DNA from: Candidatus Tepidiaquacella proteinivora
GTDB lineage: Bacteria > Bacteroidota > Ignavibacteria > Tepidaquicellales > Tepidaquicellaceae
Direction: 5' to 3'
DNA length: 64,000 nucleotides
Assembly: GCA_013348845.1 (NCBI GenBank)
Contig: CP054675.1
Coordinates: forward strand, 1,993,501 to 2,057,500
Part shown: positions 45,438 through 54,613 of the stretch, piece by piece
How positions within the stretch are numbered: the stretch's first letter is position 1
How the letters are laid out: the number at the start of each line of letters is the position of its first letter
Program-made: the position numbers and the translations under genes
Notes under the pieces: generated by a model
What the model was told of the DNA's origin: nothing
What the model saw: only the letters and a program-made list of their open reading frames with translations
The model's database searches: none

Positions 45438-46154
45438 GTGTTAAAGGAAATTATCATATCTATTCTGGAAAATGGTAATAAGTCCCCTTGCCTGGATGAG
45501 TTTATCCGAATATGTCTAAAAATATCTTATGTTTGTTTTATAAAATCACGTTATAAAGATTTTATTTGTTCCGAAACGGGTTTGAGTTGCAAAGATTTTG
45601 CCTGGGATGCAATTGCGGATTTATTTAAAGAAACCAATGGGAAATATTTGTATTTTGAAAAACATTTTACAAAAGGGAATAAAAAAATCTATGAGTTAAG
45701 TGAAGAGTATATAGACGCCAAACTTAATGCTATTGTTATTTCGAGAACCACACAAAGAATCAGAGAAATAAGGGAATCAGATTGCAACGAAATATATTTA
45801 AAAATAAAAGATGCAGTAAGACTTCATATTTCAAGAAAATCGGGGTTGATATCAAGTTTAATCTATAATAAAAACGAATATTATTATACTTGTAATATAA
45901 AGAAGTTAAACTGTATTGAAGATGAAATTCCAGTAGAAATACTAGTTGAAGAAATATTTAAAGTAACGAATAAAATAACTAAAATTTCTGCAATTACAGA
46001 ATTAGTGTTTCAGATATTAAATCAGCAAAATATTTATTCAAAGGCAATTTCTGAAATTAATTTAATAAATTCCATTACCGAATATTTTAATAGAAGATTA
46101 AAAGATTATAAATCAAATAATGTGCACTATATATATGATGAAGAGGCATTATGA
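45438..46154 (+). CDS. Helical protein with faint sigma-70 region 2 likeness (unrecognised family)
   Basis: 238 residues from GTG 45438; no signal or membrane helix, mostly predicted helix. I do not recognise a named family. The segment LSCKDFAWDAIADLFKETNG at about 49-68 resembles the region-2 helix of ECF-type sigma factors (L..eDlaqDa...L), and a second helical block near 180-225 could correspond to region 4, though no clear helix-turn-helix is visible. The next gene overlaps its stop by four bases (ATGA) and encodes a protein like an anti-sigma factor, which supports a regulator reading. A purely structural or other role remains possible. Confidence 0.45.
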   Translation: MLKEIIISILENGNKSPCLDEFIRICLKISYVCFIKSRYKDFICSETGLSCKDFAWDAIADLFKETNGKYLYFEKHFTKGNKKIYELSEEYIDAKLNAIVISRTTQRIREIRESDCNEIYLKIKDAVRLHISRKSGLISSLIYNKNEYYYTCNIKKLNCIEDEIPVEILVEEIFKVTNKITKISAITELVFQILNQQNIYSKAISEINLINSITEYFNRRLKDYKSNNVHYIYDEEAL

Positions 46155-46669
46155 AATTAATAACTGACGAAATATTACATTTTTATGTAAAAAATCCTGG
46201 TTCTCTCGAACCTGAAATCAAAAATTATATTGATGAACTCATCACAAGCGATGAAAATTTCAGGCAAAGAGTGAAGGAAATAGAGGAATTTTATTTGGCG
46301 TTTGAAAACACAGAAATAGATTTTGATGTTGAGAGTTATCTGACAAATAAAATAGAGTTGTTTCCGATGAACAATGTTTATAAGAATAAACACAAAATTG
46401 CCGCATCGGTTAAAACAATACCGGTTGATGAGTATAAATATATTAATACTTTTATTTCAGCAGATAATTTTGTTTTGATACGTGTTCATAAAAATGAGAA
46501 AACAAATGAGTATAAAATAAATCTTGTATGCGAGGATATGGATAAGGTAGATTCTGCTGTAATGATTTTAGATGATGAAAGATATACTGCTGATAAAAAT
46601 GGAGTAGTGGTAATTAAAGATAAGAATATAGACAAGTTTACTAGAATCAGTGTCTTGCTAAGAAAATAG
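46151..46669 (+). CDS. Anti-sigma-like small protein (unrecognised family)
   Basis: 172 residues, acidic and soluble. The first 55 residues (ITDEILHFYVKNPGSLEPEI, then KNYIDELITSDENFRQRVKE) follow the pattern of the anti-sigma N-terminal domain: a short helix with L..Y, a proline-bearing turn, then a helix ending in L..D...R..V. The zinc His/Cys of classical ZAS domains are missing. Residues from about 95 on are strand-rich and end in ISVLLRK. It overlaps the upstream gene (ATGA) and is followed 21 bases later by the membrane Lon-like protease gene. The function is inferred from pattern and context only. Confidence 0.45.
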   Translation: MKLITDEILHFYVKNPGSLEPEIKNYIDELITSDENFRQRVKEIEEFYLAFENTEIDFDVESYLTNKIELFPMNNVYKNKHKIAASVKTIPVDEYKYINTFISADNFVLIRVHKNEKTNEYKINLVCEDMDKVDSAVMILDDERYTADKNGVVVIKDKNIDKFTRISVLLRK

Positions 46670-46690: not shown

Positions 46691-48814
46691 ATGCCTCTGC
46701 AGTTATATGAAGTAGAAACCAGATTTCAGCATCTCCGAGATGTAATTAAATCTCCCGCTACAATCGGATATAAGTTGCTTTCCATTTCAAAATTTTTAGG
46801 GGAACTTCTTAATGAAAATAATAAAGCGAAATATGATTCATATTTTGCAGATATATTTCCATCGTTTGCGGAATTGCTTTTAAAAAATGATTTTAAGAAT
46901 TTTTCTTTTGAGGAACTTGATAAATTTCTATTTATCTATAATTCATTACAGGAATACGAAAAGCGTGAAGATAAAAATAAAATACCAAATATAATAAATG
47001 AAGCAAAGAATAATATATTCAAACCTGTATCAGAAAAACTTTCAGAATCTGAAATTCCGTTAGTAGTAATTGATAATGAAGATGATAATGATAAGATAAA
47101 GTATGGTTTTATTGTCAATTTAAATCTATCGACGGAAAAACGTAAAGACAAAAATGGAATTGATTATGTTAAATTTTTAAATCTGGTTGATTTAAAAGAG
47201 TTAGAAATTATTGAACATCTTAATTTTATAGTTAAAGAGGCAAAAAAGTTATGTGGAAGAGCAACTGAAGTTAATAAATACAATTATATTTTCTATTTTG
47301 ATAAGAAAGATTATCTCTACACCGGTACATCTTTAGGATTAGCAGCAATGTGCCTTGTCCTAAATTCTATTTATATAAATTCAATTTGTGAATATTATTA
47401 TAAATTCAAAGGCGATTGCGTTTTTTCCGGTGCTATGACCGAAAACGGTTTGCTTTTAAAACTCGATGAGGAAAGTCTCCGCATAAAACTAAAAACTGTA
47501 TTTTATTCAGGTTATAATAAATTTGTAATTCCAGAAGATAACATCAAACAGGCAAAAGAACAACTGGCTGAACTGAATAAAATTCATCCTGATAGAAAAC
47601 TTGAACTCATACCGGTAAATAATTTCTTAAGTATATTTGACAATCCAAAGATTGTAGAAAAATATAAACTTACACACAGAGAAAAGATTACAAAGGTTTA
47701 TGATGCATATAGAAAACCTGTAAATATTTCAATGGCAATATTATTTTTTGCAGTTGTGTTTTCTTATTTATTCTTCTATTTAATCCCGCATTTGGATAAA
47801 AACCCCGTCTATCATAATTTCATAGATAACAAGTATGTTATTTATAATAAATACGGAGTTGAACTCTGGAAATCTGTCAATTTGAGTTTGGTTAATAAAA
47901 GTTTTTATGAAAATTATAGAGGCACAAGATGCATTCTTACAGATATTGACAAAGACGAAATAAACGAACTTATTTACCTTGTCTATGATGAAAATGAAAT
48001 TGAATGCAATCATACTATTTTCTGCTCTAATAATAAATTGAAAAACTTTCCAATGGTTTTGCCCTTACGAGAATTAAATTATCCAAATGACCCTGTTCAT
48101 AACTTCCTGATTTACCTCAAACAGATTTATTTGTTGGATTGTAACAATGATGGTAATTTGGATATTTTATATACAGGCTTACATTATCAGTTTTATCCTA
48201 CAATTCTCGGCGCAGTTAATTTTGATGGAGAGCAAATAAGTGAATTCTGGAATGAAGGGCATTCATCTCTTCTAAAAGTTATAGATATAAATAACACCGG
48301 CAAACCGGATATTTTCTTTTGCGGATGCAATAACAGGGATTCACTTGAATGTGCCGCATTGATTGTATTTGACCCGGAATATATCAGCGGAAGCAGTCCT
48401 TACACAGACCCGCTGAACACCGGAAAACCTGGACTTGAAAAATATTATATACTTTTTCCAAGAACTGTTTTGTTAGAACAGACTAGCAGGGAAAGAAATG
48501 ATGTATTTGATCTCAGAATTAACTCTGACAAAACTATTTCCTGCTGGACTTTGGAAGGAAATAATACATCAGAAGAAACAGTATCTTACGATTTTGATAT
48601 TAATATGAATTTAATTCAGGTAAGTAATAATGATGCATTCAAAAAACAATACAATAAATTAAGAACATCAATCCGAAAAGACCTTCCCGAATTTCCCAAA
48701 TATTTAAATGAACTCAAACAAAAAGTCCGCTGGTGGGACGGGGATAAGTTTGTCAACTATCGGGTAATAAACCGACATAACCTCGAAGCGGTCAAAAATA
48801 AGGTAAAAAATTAA
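46691..48814 (+). CDS. Membrane-anchored Lon-like (S16) protease with FG-GAP/VCBS ectodomain
   Basis: 707 residues in three parts. Residues about 130-330 look like a Lon proteolytic domain: GTSLGLAAMC places the catalytic Ser214, and counting back 15 from the conserved Pro281 (FVIPEDN) puts Lys266 exactly where Lon has its catalytic Lys. No AAA+ ATPase domain is present. One membrane helix follows at about 345-367. The C-terminal half carries three Asp-rich FG-GAP-like loops (DIDKDEINEL near 417, DCNNDGNLDI near 482, DINNTGKPDI near 530), which usually bind calcium in a beta-propeller. A protease inside and a sensor-like propeller outside would suit signal transduction; the first 120 residues are helical and unassigned. 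Confidence 0.6.
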   Translation: MPLQLYEVETRFQHLRDVIKSPATIGYKLLSISKFLGELLNENNKAKYDSYFADIFPSFAELLLKNDFKNFSFEELDKFLFIYNSLQEYEKREDKNKIPNIINEAKNNIFKPVSEKLSESEIPLVVIDNEDDNDKIKYGFIVNLNLSTEKRKDKNGIDYVKFLNLVDLKELEIIEHLNFIVKEAKKLCGRATEVNKYNYIFYFDKKDYLYTGTSLGLAAMCLVLNSIYINSICEYYYKFKGDCVFSGAMTENGLLLKLDEESLRIKLKTVFYSGYNKFVIPEDNIKQAKEQLAELNKIHPDRKLELIPVNNFLSIFDNPKIVEKYKLTHREKITKVYDAYRKPVNISMAILFFAVVFSYLFFYLIPHLDKNPVYHNFIDNKYVIYNKYGVELWKSVNLSLVNKSFYENYRGTRCILTDIDKDEINELIYLVYDENEIECNHTIFCSNNKLKNFPMVLPLRELNYPNDPVHNFLIYLKQIYLLDCNNDGNLDILYTGLHYQFYPTILGAVNFDGEQISEFWNEGHSSLLKVIDINNTGKPDIFFCGCNNRDSLECAALIVFDPEYISGSSPYTDPLNTGKPGLEKYYILFPRTVLLEQTSRERNDVFDLRINSDKTISCWTLEGNNTSEETVSYDFDINMNLIQVSNNDAFKKQYNKLRTSIRKDLPEFPKYLNELKQKVRWWDGDKFVNYRVINRHNLEAVKNKVKN

Positions 48815-50236: not shown

Positions 50237-50911
50237 ATGAAGACAAAAAAATCTACCTTTGTTTTTTTACTTTTAATTTTTAGTTTTTCATTTTTAATTG
50301 ATAATACTTTTGCTCAGAAGCCGGAACTTGTTGTGCAGATGGGGCATAATGGAGCTGTCACTTCCGTCGCCTTTTCTCCCGACGGTAAATATGCACTCTC
50401 GGGAAGTTGGGATTGTAAAATGAAACTCTGGGAAATAGAAACCGGCAAAGAACTTGCATCACTTATTTCAATGGATGAAAACGACTGGGTAGTAGTAACA
50501 CCAGAGGGTTATTTTGATGGTTCACCTAACGGGATGAAAAATATACACTGGGTAAGCGGACTTGAGATATATCCGCTTGATGCATTTTATAATAAGTTTT
50601 ATGTTGACGGCCTTCTGTCAAAAATTATGAAAGGAGAAAGGTATTAGGCAAATGAGAATAATGTAGATTACATAATCGCATCAGAGTTTAAGCTTCCTGA
50701 AGTTGAAATCCTATCTCTGAAAAACTTCGATGAATTTAAAATGAAGGAAATAAAGTTGAAAATCAGTTTTAAAGAAGGGACAAATAAAATTAAGGATGTG
50801 ATTGTATATGTAAACGTGAAGGTAATTGAAAGGGCAAGTAAAGATTTTGGAATTATTCTGCTACTTCCAAAGACTTCTTCGGAAATATTGAAACAAGGAT
50901 ATGAACATTAA
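50237..50911 (+). pseudogene. Remnant of a secreted WD40-repeat protein with in-frame TAG
   Basis: A signal peptide (FLLLIFSFSFLIDNTFAQ) is followed by one WD40 unit (GHNGAVTSVAFSPDGKYALS, then GSWDCKMKLWEIETGKE), then WVVVTPEGYFDGSPNGM, which in intact relatives follows five to ten WD40 units. A TAG at 50645-50647 stops it at 136 residues. The same frame continues to 50911 with PEVEILSLKNFDEFKMKEIK and NKIKDVIVYVNVKVIE, matching the domain that normally comes next. So WD40 repeats were lost by deletion and the rest silenced by a nonsense codon. Parent proteins often carry a caspase-like peptidase domain, not present here. Confidence 0.75.
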
Positions 50912-51116
50912 GATAAAAAAAATAAGTTTAAAAGGAAAAAAGTTTTTGGAAAAATATTTATATATTTTAGTAATATTAAACTTTAAAAACATTAAAATAA
51001 TAAAAATGAAAAAATCAATTATTATTTTACTTAGTGTTTTTGTATTTTTAAACCTTGCTAAAGGTCAAGATTATTTACAGTTAGGTACTGAAGAACTTAC
51101 GAAAGGGAATTATTCA
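50864..51116 (+). repeat. Duplicated upstream region of TPR gene, copy A
   Basis: About 250 bases, imperfectly repeated at 52842-53087: from CTTCCAAAG through the leader (TATATTTTAGTA is in both) into the first 37 codons of the secreted TPR protein. The shared non-coding part, just before each ATG, probably holds the promoter. Confidence 0.85.
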
Positions 51117-52829
51117 GCAGCAGTTGAATACTACACAAAAGCAATCCAGAACAATCTGGATAATGAAATGGCATACTTGGGCCGTGGGCTTGCATATTAT
51201 TATTTAGAACAATATGACCAAGCGATATCTGATTACACAAAAGCAATCCAGCTCAAGCCGGATTTAGCAGAGGCATACACCTACCGTGGGCTTGCATATT
51301 ATTATTTAGAACAATATGACCAAGCGATATCTGATTACACAAAAGCAATCCAGCTCAAGCCGGATGATTCAGGAGCATATAGGAGTCGCGGTAATGCATA
51401 TTCTAAATTAGGACAATATGACAAGGCAATATCTGATTACACAGTGGCAATCCAGCTCAATCCGGATTTTGCAGAAGCATACCTAGACCGCGGTCTTGCA
51501 TTTCTTTATTTAGAACAATATAACAAGGCAATATCTGATTACACAGTGGCAATCCAGCTCGATCCAAATAATGGAGATGCATACCTGAGCCGCGGGCTTG
51601 CATATTATTATTTAAAGCAATATGAGAAAGCGATATCTGATTACACAGTAGCAATCCAGCTCAATCCGGATTTTGGAGAAGCATACTTTGGCCGTGGGCT
51701 TGGATATCATAATTTAGAACAATATAATAAAGCAATAACCGATTACACAGCAGCAATCCAGCTCAATCCGGGTTTTGCAGAAGCATACAACAACCGCGGT
51801 AATGCATATTATTCTTTAAAGCAATATGAGAAAGCGATATCTGATTACACAGAAGCAATCCAACTCAAGCCGGATTATGCAGAAGCATACTACAAACGCG
51901 GTAATATATATTATTATTTAAAGCAATATGAGAAAGCGATATCTGATTACACAGTAGCAATTCAACTCAAGCTGGAAGATGCAGATGAATACTACAAGCG
52001 CGGTAATGCATATTATTATTTAAAGCAATATGACAAAGCAATCTCCGACTACACAAAAGCAATCCAGCTCAATCCGGATTTTGCAGAAGCATACTTTGGC
52101 CGCGGTCTTGCATATTATTATTTAGAACAATATGACAAAACAATATCAGATTACACAGTAGCGATCCAGCTCAAGCCGGATAATGCAGAAGCATACTTTG
52201 GCCGCGGTCTTGCATATTATTATTTAAAGCAATATGAAAAAGCGATATCTGATTACACAGTAGCAATCCAGCTCAAGCCGGATTATGCAGAAGCATACAA
52301 CAACCGAGGGCTTGCATATCATAATTTAGAACGATATGACCAAGCGATATCCGATTACACAGCAGCAATCCAGCTCAAGACGGATTATGCAAAGGCATAC
52401 TATTATCGCGGGCTTGCATATAAAGATTTAGAACAATATGACAAAGCAATTTCCGATTACACAGTAGCAATCCAGCTCAACCCGGATTTTGCATTGGCAT
52501 ATCTGGGCCGCGGTCATGCATATTTTGATTTAAAGCAGTATGACAAAGCGCTATCTGATTACACAGTAGCAATCCAACTCAATCCGAATGATGCAGATGC
52601 ATACTACAAACGTGGTAATGCATATGGTAATTTAAAGCAATATGACAAAGCGATATCTGATTACACAATAGCAATCCAGCTCAATCCGGGTTTTGCAGGA
52701 GCATACTTTGGCCGCGGTATTGCATATTACTTATCTGGGAATACGATAAAAGGTTGTGAAGACTGGAGAAAAGCATATTCGCTAGGTGTAGTTATTGCAA
52801 AGGAATTATTAGATGAATATTGCAAATAA
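51006..52829 (+). CDS. Secreted tetratricopeptide-repeat (TPR) protein
   Basis: I start at ATG 51006 (607 residues) because it gives a signal peptide, KKSIIILLSVFVFLNLAKGQ; the frame is open back to 50901 but those codons belong to the duplicated leader. The body is about 17 TPR units of exactly 34 residues with consensus AYxxRGLAYYxLxQYDKAIS, then DYTxAIQLxPD. It ends GNTIKGCEDWRKAYSLG..AKELLDEYCK, a cap shared with the TPR protein at 53771. TPR superhelices bind protein partners; with a signal peptide it should be periplasmic or surface-exposed. The extreme uniformity of the repeats suggests recombination between them. Confidence 0.85.
   Translation: MKKSIIILLSVFVFLNLAKGQDYLQLGTEELTKGNYSAAVEYYTKAIQNNLDNEMAYLGRGLAYYYLEQYDQAISDYTKAIQLKPDLAEAYTYRGLAYYYLEQYDQAISDYTKAIQLKPDDSGAYRSRGNAYSKLGQYDKAISDYTVAIQLNPDFAEAYLDRGLAFLYLEQYNKAISDYTVAIQLDPNNGDAYLSRGLAYYYLKQYEKAISDYTVAIQLNPDFGEAYFGRGLGYHNLEQYNKAITDYTAAIQLNPGFAEAYNNRGNAYYSLKQYEKAISDYTEAIQLKPDYAEAYYKRGNIYYYLKQYEKAISDYTVAIQLKLEDADEYYKRGNAYYYLKQYDKAISDYTKAIQLNPDFAEAYFGRGLAYYYLEQYDKTISDYTVAIQLKPDNAEAYFGRGLAYYYLKQYEKAISDYTVAIQLKPDYAEAYNNRGLAYHNLERYDQAISDYTAAIQLKTDYAKAYYYRGLAYKDLEQYDKAISDYTVAIQLNPDFALAYLGRGHAYFDLKQYDKALSDYTVAIQLNPNDADAYYKRGNAYGNLKQYDKAISDYTIAIQLNPGFAGAYFGRGIAYYLSGNTIKGCEDWRKAYSLGVVIAKELLDEYCK
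51118..52750 (+). repeat. Tandem 102-base coding repeats (TPR array)
   Basis: Sixteen or so units of 102 bases with frequent identity in the blocks GCATATTATTATTTA and GATTACACAGTAGCAATCCA. The unit length is constant, so changes in number keep the frame. Not a CRISPR array: there are no spacers and the repeats are coding. Confidence 0.85.
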
Positions 52830-52841
52830 ACTTTACCTTTG

Positions 52842-53087
52842 CTTCCAAAGCCTTCCTCGGAAATATTTAAACAAGGATATGAATTTTAAGATCAAAAAAA
52901 TAAGTTTAAAAAGGGAAAAAGTTTTAGGAGAAATATCTATATATTTTAGTAGTATTGAAGTTTAAAAACATTAAAATATGAAAAAATTAAGTTTTACTTT
53001 TCTTAGTATGTTTTTGTTTTTGAGCATTGCTAAAGGGCAAAATTATTTACAGTTAGGTACTGAAGAACTTACGAAAGGGGCTTATTC
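52842..53087 (+). repeat. Duplicated upstream region of TPR gene, copy B
   Basis: Second copy of 50864-51116, here leading into a different gene. The 3' flank of the TPR genes is also duplicated: TTGCAAATAAACTTTAC occurs at both 52820 and 54604, so the whole gene plus leader was copied. Confidence 0.82.
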
Positions 53088-53744
53088 AAAATCTGATTTA
53101 TATTTGTATATAGATAATACTTATAATAGTGGATTTCCTGTAGTAGGAGGAGGTTTTCTTTGGAATTTTGGGGTTAAAGGACAAACAAGAGGGGATATTT
53201 TTAATTGTTTAAATCAAAATCTTGTAGAGCAAAGCATTTATTTTCCATTTAAACAATGGGTTCATTTGGTTGTAGTAAGAAATTATACTGGTTATAAGAA
53301 TATATGTATTAATGAAAAGCAATTTATTGCTGGGAAATTAATTAGGCCATTTCCATATACATATATTTCACTAAGGATTATTTGTTGGGATTATTATTTT
53401 GGGGGTGTAATTGTTTATGTAGATGATGTTAAAAAATATTATTCACCCATAGGAATTAAAAATATTTCATACGAAATTTCTGAGAAAATTTCTTTATCCC
53501 AAAACTATCCCAATTCTTTCAATCCATCGACAAAAATAAAATTTGATTTAGCAAAATCAGAATCGGTCACATTAAAAATATTCGACGCACTCGGCAAGGA
53601 AGTTGAAACACTTTTAAATGAACAATTCGCACCCATTGCATTCGAAGTTGACTGGAACACCGACTCATACGCGAGCGCGTATATTTCTACCATCTCGAAA
53701 CCGGCAATTTCATTGATAGAAAAAGAATAATTTTAATAAAATAA
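52978..53744 (+). pseudogene. Chimeric secreted protein with LamG-like domain and frameshifted type IX sorting signal
   Basis: The first 37 residues copy the secreted TPR protein (signal peptide plus YLQLGTEELTKG), then switch at about 53088 to an unrelated segment with FKQWVHLVVVRNYTGYKNIC and VIVYVDDVKKYY, which looks like a laminin-G/concanavalin fold. A T9SS C-terminal domain follows (LSQNYPNSFNPSTKIKFDLA, ALGKEVETLL). Translation shifts frame near 53674-53679 and ends at 53730; one extra G in AGCGCG restores YASGVYFYHLETGNFIDRKR and a normal end at 53744. The sorting tail is slightly richer in GC than the rest. Without it the product should not be exported by type IX. Confidence 0.78.
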
Positions 53745-53770
53745 ATAATATATAAAGAAAGGAGAAAAAA

Positions 53771-54613
53771 ATGTATTCTCAGTTAGCTCTGGAAGAATTT
53801 CTTAAAGGAAATTATTCAAAAGCGATTGAATACTACACAAAAGCAATCCAGCTCAATCCTTTAGATGTAGCTGCATACTTGGGCCGCGGTCTTGCATATG
53901 ATGATTTAGAACAATATGACAAAGCAATATCCGATTATACAGTAGCAATCAAGCTTAATCCTGATTATGCAGATACATACACGGGCCGCGGGACGGCATA
54001 TTCTAAATTAGGACAATATGACAAAGCAATATCCGATTTAACAAAAGCAATCAAGCTAAACCCAGATGATGCAGAGGTATACAACAACCGCGGGCTTGCA
54101 TATTCTGGTTTAGGACAATATGACAAAGCACTATCCGATTACACAAAAGCAATCAAACTAGATCCGGATTATGCAGATGCATACAACAACCGCGGAATTG
54201 CATATAGTGATTTAGGACAATATGACAAAGCGATATCCGATTTAACAAAAGCAATCAAGCTCAATCCGGATGATGCAGCGGCATATAACAACCGCGGGAA
54301 TGTATATTTATATTTTAAACAAAATAACAAAGCGATATCTGATTACACAAAAGCAATCCAGCTCAATCCTAATGATGCACATGCCTACTACAATCGTGGG
54401 GTTGCATATAGAGATTTAGACCAATATGAGAAAGCAATATCCGATTTAACAAAAGCAATCAAGCTAAATCCTGATTATGCAAAAGCCTACTACAATCGTG
54501 GGATTGCATATAACAAATCTGGAAATACAATTAAAGCTTGTAAAGACTGGAAAAAAGCATATTCGCTTGGTTATGTTGATGCAAAGGAATTATTGGATAG
54601 ATTTTGCAAATAA
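53771..54613 (+). CDS. TPR protein without signal peptide
   Basis: 280 residues: seven to eight 34-residue TPR units (AYNNRGIAYSDLGQYDKAIS, DLTKAIKLNPDD) and the same cap as the larger TPR protein (GNTIKACKDWKKAYSLGYVDAKELLDRFCK shortened: CKDWKKAYSLG). The signal peptide of its paralogue is missing: the protein begins MYSQLALEEFLKGNYSKAIE, aligned to the mature start. AAAGGAG at 53759-53765 is one of the few Shine-Dalgarno-like sites in the window, six bases before ATG. If translated it would stay in the cytoplasm. Confidence 0.78.
   Translation: MYSQLALEEFLKGNYSKAIEYYTKAIQLNPLDVAAYLGRGLAYDDLEQYDKAISDYTVAIKLNPDYADTYTGRGTAYSKLGQYDKAISDLTKAIKLNPDDAEVYNNRGLAYSGLGQYDKALSDYTKAIKLDPDYADAYNNRGIAYSDLGQYDKAISDLTKAIKLNPDDAAAYNNRGNVYLYFKQNNKAISDYTKAIQLNPNDAHAYYNRGVAYRDLDQYEKAISDLTKAIKLNPDYAKAYYNRGIAYNKSGNTIKACKDWKKAYSLGYVDAKELLDRFCK

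Follow-up and report, generated by a model that had tools for sequence, protein, structure and literature searches.

The locus described here raises the question of what a cell would do with a membrane protein that joins a Lon-type protease domain lacking an ATPase to an FG-GAP ectodomain, and what part its two upstream neighbours play. The protein is encoded by gene C, an open reading frame of 707 amino acids (46691..48814, +) in the window, that is, the whole stretch of 64,000 nucleotides that was analysed. It is preceded by gene A (45438..46154, +; 238 aa), a conserved partner gene that is sigma-factor-like only by the predicted fold of a homologue, and by gene B (46151..46669, +; 172 aa), which is anti-sigma-like and carries a ZAS-type domain that in this genus has lost its zinc ligands. 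The original prediction, made from sequence alone, had called an S16 domain with an outside propeller-like sensor an unfamiliar architecture, and it is likewise not described in the literature that we searched. It had left the two preceding genes unconnected; these suggest a specific role for gene C, regulated cleavage of an anti-sigma factor.

Residues 115-325 of gene C (47033..47665, +) were assigned to an S16/Lon-type protease domain by profile, structure prediction and motif. The stretch GTSLGLAAMC begins at residue 212 and contains Ser214 (codon 47330..47332, +), the predicted nucleophile, while FVIPEDN begins at residue 278 and contributes Pro281, 15 residues after Lys266 (codon 47486..47488, +), the predicted general base; both residues, the FVIPEDN motif and the Lys-Pro spacing had been claimed at exactly these positions, and all held. 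Relatives of the protein turned up in 34 of the 296 genomes of the phylum that were searched, and 33 proteins were aligned. Identity among these is often only around 20%, and just five columns are invariant, namely S214, K266, P372, N386 and G523. In an extended set, Ser214 was kept in 41/41 sequences covering the column and Lys266 in 42/42.

A profile built from 32 of the protease domains matched Lon structures in the PDB (1z0e, E=1.1e-11) with serine and lysine in register, and its match to the CalpL structure 7qda was weak (E=0.06). Alignment of the protease domain with the genome's own Lon by hhalign gave E=4.8e-11, with both dyad residues aligned. Across most of residues 211-325 the AlphaFold model of gene C, built with 10 homologues, reaches a mean pLDDT of about 80-95; in the first part of the protease domain the values are lower (58-84). 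The model matched Lon P-domains with VIA Z values as high as 20.9, 6x27 superposing at 2.2 A over 179 residues, and with a Foldseek E of 5e-9, and the helicases RadA and ComM, which carry Lon-like domains, were also among its structural matches. A fold unlike S16, or homologues without the serine and lysine, would have refuted the protease assignment; both possibilities were looked at, and the fold is S16 and both residues are kept. Hence residues 115-325 adopt the S16/Lon P-domain fold with a conserved Ser214-Lys266 dyad, the distance between the two residues being unmeasured, and the proteolytic activity of gene C is inferred in the absence of activity data.

Searches with the single protein missed the protease. 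Pfam returned no protease match for the gene C protein, which did not reach the cut-off of Lon_C (PF05362), and only 3 of the 33 homologues matched this family, weakly (best E=0.001). When the genome was searched with Lon_C, Lon itself and two other places were recovered, gene C not being among them. A phmmer search of the whole protein against the PDB found no protease, and the LuxS matches that it gave to the ectodomain were discarded as chance.

No AAA+ family was detected in the 33 members, and no Walker A motif was found in the gene C protein, the N-terminal domain of which (residues 1-113; 46691..47029, +) is helical in the model instead. One apparent Walker A match in homologue L039, seen also in L080, was rejected, as by eye it is the catalytic-serine loop (HNGKSANL) and not a P-loop. 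The protease domain is followed by a membrane helix at residues 346-368 in the model (47726..47794, +), within a residue of the 345-367 first proposed, and a single such helix is present in each of the 41 gene C homologues analysed. Lysines and arginines flanking this helix average 5.6 before it versus 1.8 after it, and are more numerous before it in 41/41. Since the positive side of the helix is the protease side in every case, the protease is predicted to be cytoplasmic and the FG-GAP part to lie outside.

The extracytoplasmic part, an FG-GAP or beta-propeller-like domain assigned to residues 369-690 (47795..48760, +) on profiles, is strand-rich in the model, partly at low confidence, and the fold-search list was filled by the Lon domain. 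It contains three Asp-rich repeats, DIDKDE at residues 418-423 (47942..47959, +), DCNNDG at 483-488 (48137..48154, +) and DINNTG at 532-537 (48284..48301, +), which had been predicted near 417, 482 and 530. The family does carry recognisable FG-GAP repeats: the match of FG-GAP_3 to gene C alone fell below the Pfam cut-off (E=0.0011, 19.9 bits versus 26.9), while FG-GAP_3 was matched by 19/33 homologues (best 8.1e-9) and FG-GAP by 11/33. Profile matches of the ectodomain were to propeller lectins of the PLL group and to polysaccharide lyases, but these matches are led by short repeats, and a glycan ligand is therefore a lead rather than a result; that the ectodomain senses a glycan or surface polymer remains possible, the ligand being inferred. 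Taken together, profile, structure prediction, conservation and charge bias support a protein that crosses the membrane once, with a Lon-type protease domain lacking an ATPase on the inside and an FG-GAP domain outside, and this part of the original prediction held. Its proposal of a switch by an external ligand is plausible only, as an inference, and for calcium as that ligand there is no evidence beyond the Asp-rich repeats.

Genes A and B overlap by 4 bp, gene C starts 22 bp past gene B, and all three are codirectional. The order A-B-C is repeated in distant relatives, and in family f13 gene C is often unlinked from A and B. At some loci, two or three C proteins stand in tandem behind one A-B pair (L080 3602-10692; L078 6001-10627), an arrangement that looks as if several sensors feed one sigma-like protein.

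Gene B encodes a separate protein without an obvious membrane helix. The zinc motif H-x3-C-x2-C is present in 6/18 B homologues and in those fusions of a second kind, described below, that were checked, and a B profile matched the ZAS N-termini of these fusions with E down to ~8e-12. In the window's B and its paralogue the motif is absent, so that both copies in this genome are without zinc ligands. Thus some members of the B family are shown to begin with an anti-sigma domain of the ZAS (zf-HC2) type, and in the window this domain is degenerate.

A sister form of the operon links this domain with the sensor. Gene A was found in 53/395 sampled genomes of the phylum, and among the 53 distinct A genes 25 are accompanied by B and C, 4 by C alone and 15 by a ZAS-TM-FG-GAP fusion, in which an N-terminal H-x3-C-x2-C (ZAS, zf-HC2) domain is followed by a helix and the ectodomain. 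At none of the 53 A loci did gene C and the fusion occur together. Gene A and an ectodomain gene co-occurred in 32/34 genomes (Fisher p=1.8e-34). A ZAS-TM-FG-GAP protein has the textbook layout of a membrane anti-sigma factor. We read the two forms as the same outside sensor wired either to an anti-sigma domain or to a protease, with the anti-sigma domain freed as B in the latter. A quick tree of the ectodomain showed three changes between protease and ZAS forms; as it does not exclude one origin, we make no claim of repeated swaps.

The identity of gene A is less secure, as no convincing sequence match of any kind was obtained for it. No sigma match was found against Pfam in 27 members at E up to 10, and no sigma-factor match against the PDB by profile; stray NCBIfam matches to SigW (0.023) and ShbA (0.051) came from one member each, and hhalign against the genome's ECF sigmas gave nothing better than 40 column-shuffled controls. 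The fold was predicted on the homologue L078 A from Gracilimonas mengyeensis DSM 21985 (339 aa, mean pLDDT 79.7), for which the nine best VIA rows were all sigma factors (Z 6.4-9.7), including ShbA (Z 9.7) and WhiG (Z 7.5, 3.1 A over 90 residues), the WhiG matches spanning residues 1-114. VIA Z values under ~13 may arise by chance for helical models, and Foldseek found nothing significant for the model (best E 0.83). One A homologue is fused behind a response-regulator receiver domain (E=2.9e-24; L136 1005-2510, REC 6-116, A part 181-499), an arrangement that would make A the output module of a two-component system and fits an output-domain role. We consider A as a sigma factor because of this fusion, the predicted fold and the position beside a ZAS membrane protein; without sequence support, we describe gene A as sigma-like by model prediction, with region 2 as the closest fold, and do not call it a sigma factor. 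Homologues of A measure ~335 aa versus 238 aa in the window. The A proteins of this genome (window 45438-46154; L034 9060-9770) are without the C-terminal helical domain of ~100 residues seen in other A proteins. The upstream regions of these two A genes have no promoter words of more than 10 bases in common; the shared words are A/T-rich and were not used.

We lean towards a model in which C is an inner-membrane receptor-protease that cleaves B, frees A and switches genes on, while its activity, substrate and ligand are untested. The ectodomain would sense a signal outside the cytoplasm, upon which the cytoplasmic Lon-type domain would cut the anti-sigma-like B; uncut B would hold the sigma-like A, and freed A would direct RNA polymerase to its targets, plausibly genes for secreted or surface proteins downstream of the operon. 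In the sister form the same ectodomain would instead be fused directly to the anti-sigma domain. The two forms have the sensor, the helix and gene A in common and differ in whether the sensor carries an anti-sigma domain or a protease, which is most simply explained if the protease controls B. The fold, the conserved dyad, the charge bias around the helix, the conserved operon, the anti-sigma domain in relatives of B and the sister form are observed; that gene C is an active protease, that B is its substrate and that A is a sigma factor directing transcription are inferred, as are the ligand and the targets. Against this reading stand the lack of a sequence-level sigma match and of a significant Foldseek result for A, the missing zinc ligands in the window's B and the frequent unlinking of C in f13. 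A bolder version holds that an outside ligand directly switches on a protease cutting the anti-sigma factor, without a site-1/site-2 cascade, that the system arose by domain exchange, the anti-sigma domain of a membrane sensor giving way to a protease, and that A represents an unrecognised sigma family. Taken as a whole, origin included, we are inclined slightly against it.

The surroundings of the operon bear on the putative targets. Codirectional genes following the operon look secreted in 23/36 cases versus 33% of background ORFs (p=0.0004), by a crude criterion applied after the fact, and they include T9SS-tailed, dockerin, cohesin, lectin-like and subtilase proteins. In genome G026 every cohesin match falls immediately beyond the operon: the gene directly after it encodes a secreted protein that matches cohesin three times and dockerin twice (L064 6994-12001), and the one remaining cohesin match of this genome adjoins that protein. 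The operon of L051 also precedes a cohesin/dockerin gene. Both operon copies in the genome studied here have secreted WD40-repeat proteins within a few kb downstream. After the paralogous operon there is a WD40 gene (14 repeats, Pfam) and then a caspase-like reading frame (SGHG and DACYA, by eye), the loci on the paralogue's side being L034 1-2678 (-) and L096 4651-6500 (-). The WD40 copy of the window (50237-50647) looks like a short remnant. The window also carries, after the operon, two proteins of many near-identical tetratricopeptide-like repeats (50901-54613), and by eye the ORF at 52978-53730 has a T9SS-type C-terminal tail.

Several other explanations were considered. In the first, the target of C is not B but A or another cytoplasmic regulator, which C cuts or degrades, and a signal from outside would thereby shut the system down or reset it. 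The same operon and topology would serve this, nothing identifies the substrate, and the window's B is without zinc ligands. However, the sister form puts an anti-sigma domain on the same sensor, pointing to B as the controlled element, and CalpL cleaves an anti-sigma factor (PMC11417357), and we therefore regard this alternative as unlikely. It is also improbable that C is a membrane anti-sigma factor or scaffold, the S16 domain of which binds B (and A) without cutting and the ectodomain of which releases the complex. In its favour, the membrane protein of the sister form is itself anti-sigma-like, and RadA and ComM show that Lon-like domains occur in helicases; yet Ser214 and Lys266 are among the very few invariant positions, and pure binding needs neither.

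A third possibility is that C is a quality-control or maturation protease of envelope or secreted proteins, its link to A and B reflecting regulon membership only. Secreted proteins are often encoded downstream, and in f13 C may lie apart from A and B. In contrast, the charge bias places the protease in the cytoplasm in 41/41 homologues, away from secreted substrates, and the ectodomain is common to the ZAS anti-sigma-like fusions, so this role too is hard to sustain. Anti-phage signalling in the manner of CalpL, or another protease-based defence, is the least likely of all. In its favour, CalpL combines a protease and partners of the same kind (PMC11417357), and downstream of the paralogous operon lie a WD40 gene and a caspase-like reading frame. 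Against it, none of A, B and C was matched by PADLOC, two viral-contig scans (one with the single protein, one with a family-level query) found nothing, Pfam found no SAVED domain and the sensor points outwards. Scanning genome collections with the single protein likewise returned nothing.

Returning to the reading that C cleaves B, bacteria that control sigma factors across the membrane normally rely on membrane anti-sigma factors, with the cutting left to separate proteases, and to our knowledge no system has been described in which sensor and protease are one sigma-controlling protein. The architecture of gene C was not described in the literature searched, a search that left most subscription papers outside its scope. 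If the reading is true, gene A would be an unrecognised sigma-like family present in the 53/395 sampled genomes of the phylum, and the same sensor bearing an anti-sigma domain in some genomes and a protease in others would offer a natural comparison.

Among known systems, gene C resembles Lon and LonB (MEROPS S16) in the P-domain fold, the Ser-Lys dyad and the Lys-to-Pro spacing, but differs from them in having no AAA+ module and in carrying a membrane helix and ectodomain C-terminal to the protease; from Lon it also differs by a two-residue insertion before the lysine, as judged by eye from the motif alignment. With YlbL (DdcP) of Bacillus subtilis, in which a PDZ domain is combined with an N-terminal helix and which probably acts on YneA outside the cytoplasm (PMC6051672), it has in common a membrane-anchored Lon-type Ser-Lys domain without an AAA+ ATPase, whereas the gene C protease precedes the helix, is predicted to be cytoplasmic and is accompanied by a large ectodomain. 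The sister form has the layout of membrane ZAS anti-sigma factors and of the substrate-sensing RsgI/SigI systems, in which a sigma-like gene stands beside a membrane anti-sigma factor with an outside sensor. RsgI is itself cut by separate proteases in several steps including RseP (PMC12203970, PMC4711584), whereas the form in the window has the protease built into the receptor, with anti-sigma-like B encoded by a gene of its own. The proposed mechanism has its parallel in CalpL, a type III CRISPR-associated Lon-type protease with a SAVED domain; its substrate is CalpT, an anti-sigma factor by which the ECF sigma factor CalpS is held (PMC11417357). In both cases a Lon-type protease joined to a sensor domain is encoded with two partners, those of gene C being anti-sigma-like by the ZAS motif in relatives of B and sigma-like by fold alone. 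CalpL is triggered inside the cell by cA4 via SAVED, a domain that Pfam did not find in the 33 gene C members, while the sensor of gene C is an FG-GAP domain across the membrane. CalpL thus provides a precedent for a Lon-type domain acting in the cell as a signal-triggered processing protease, and the gene C family would be its outside-sensing counterpart.
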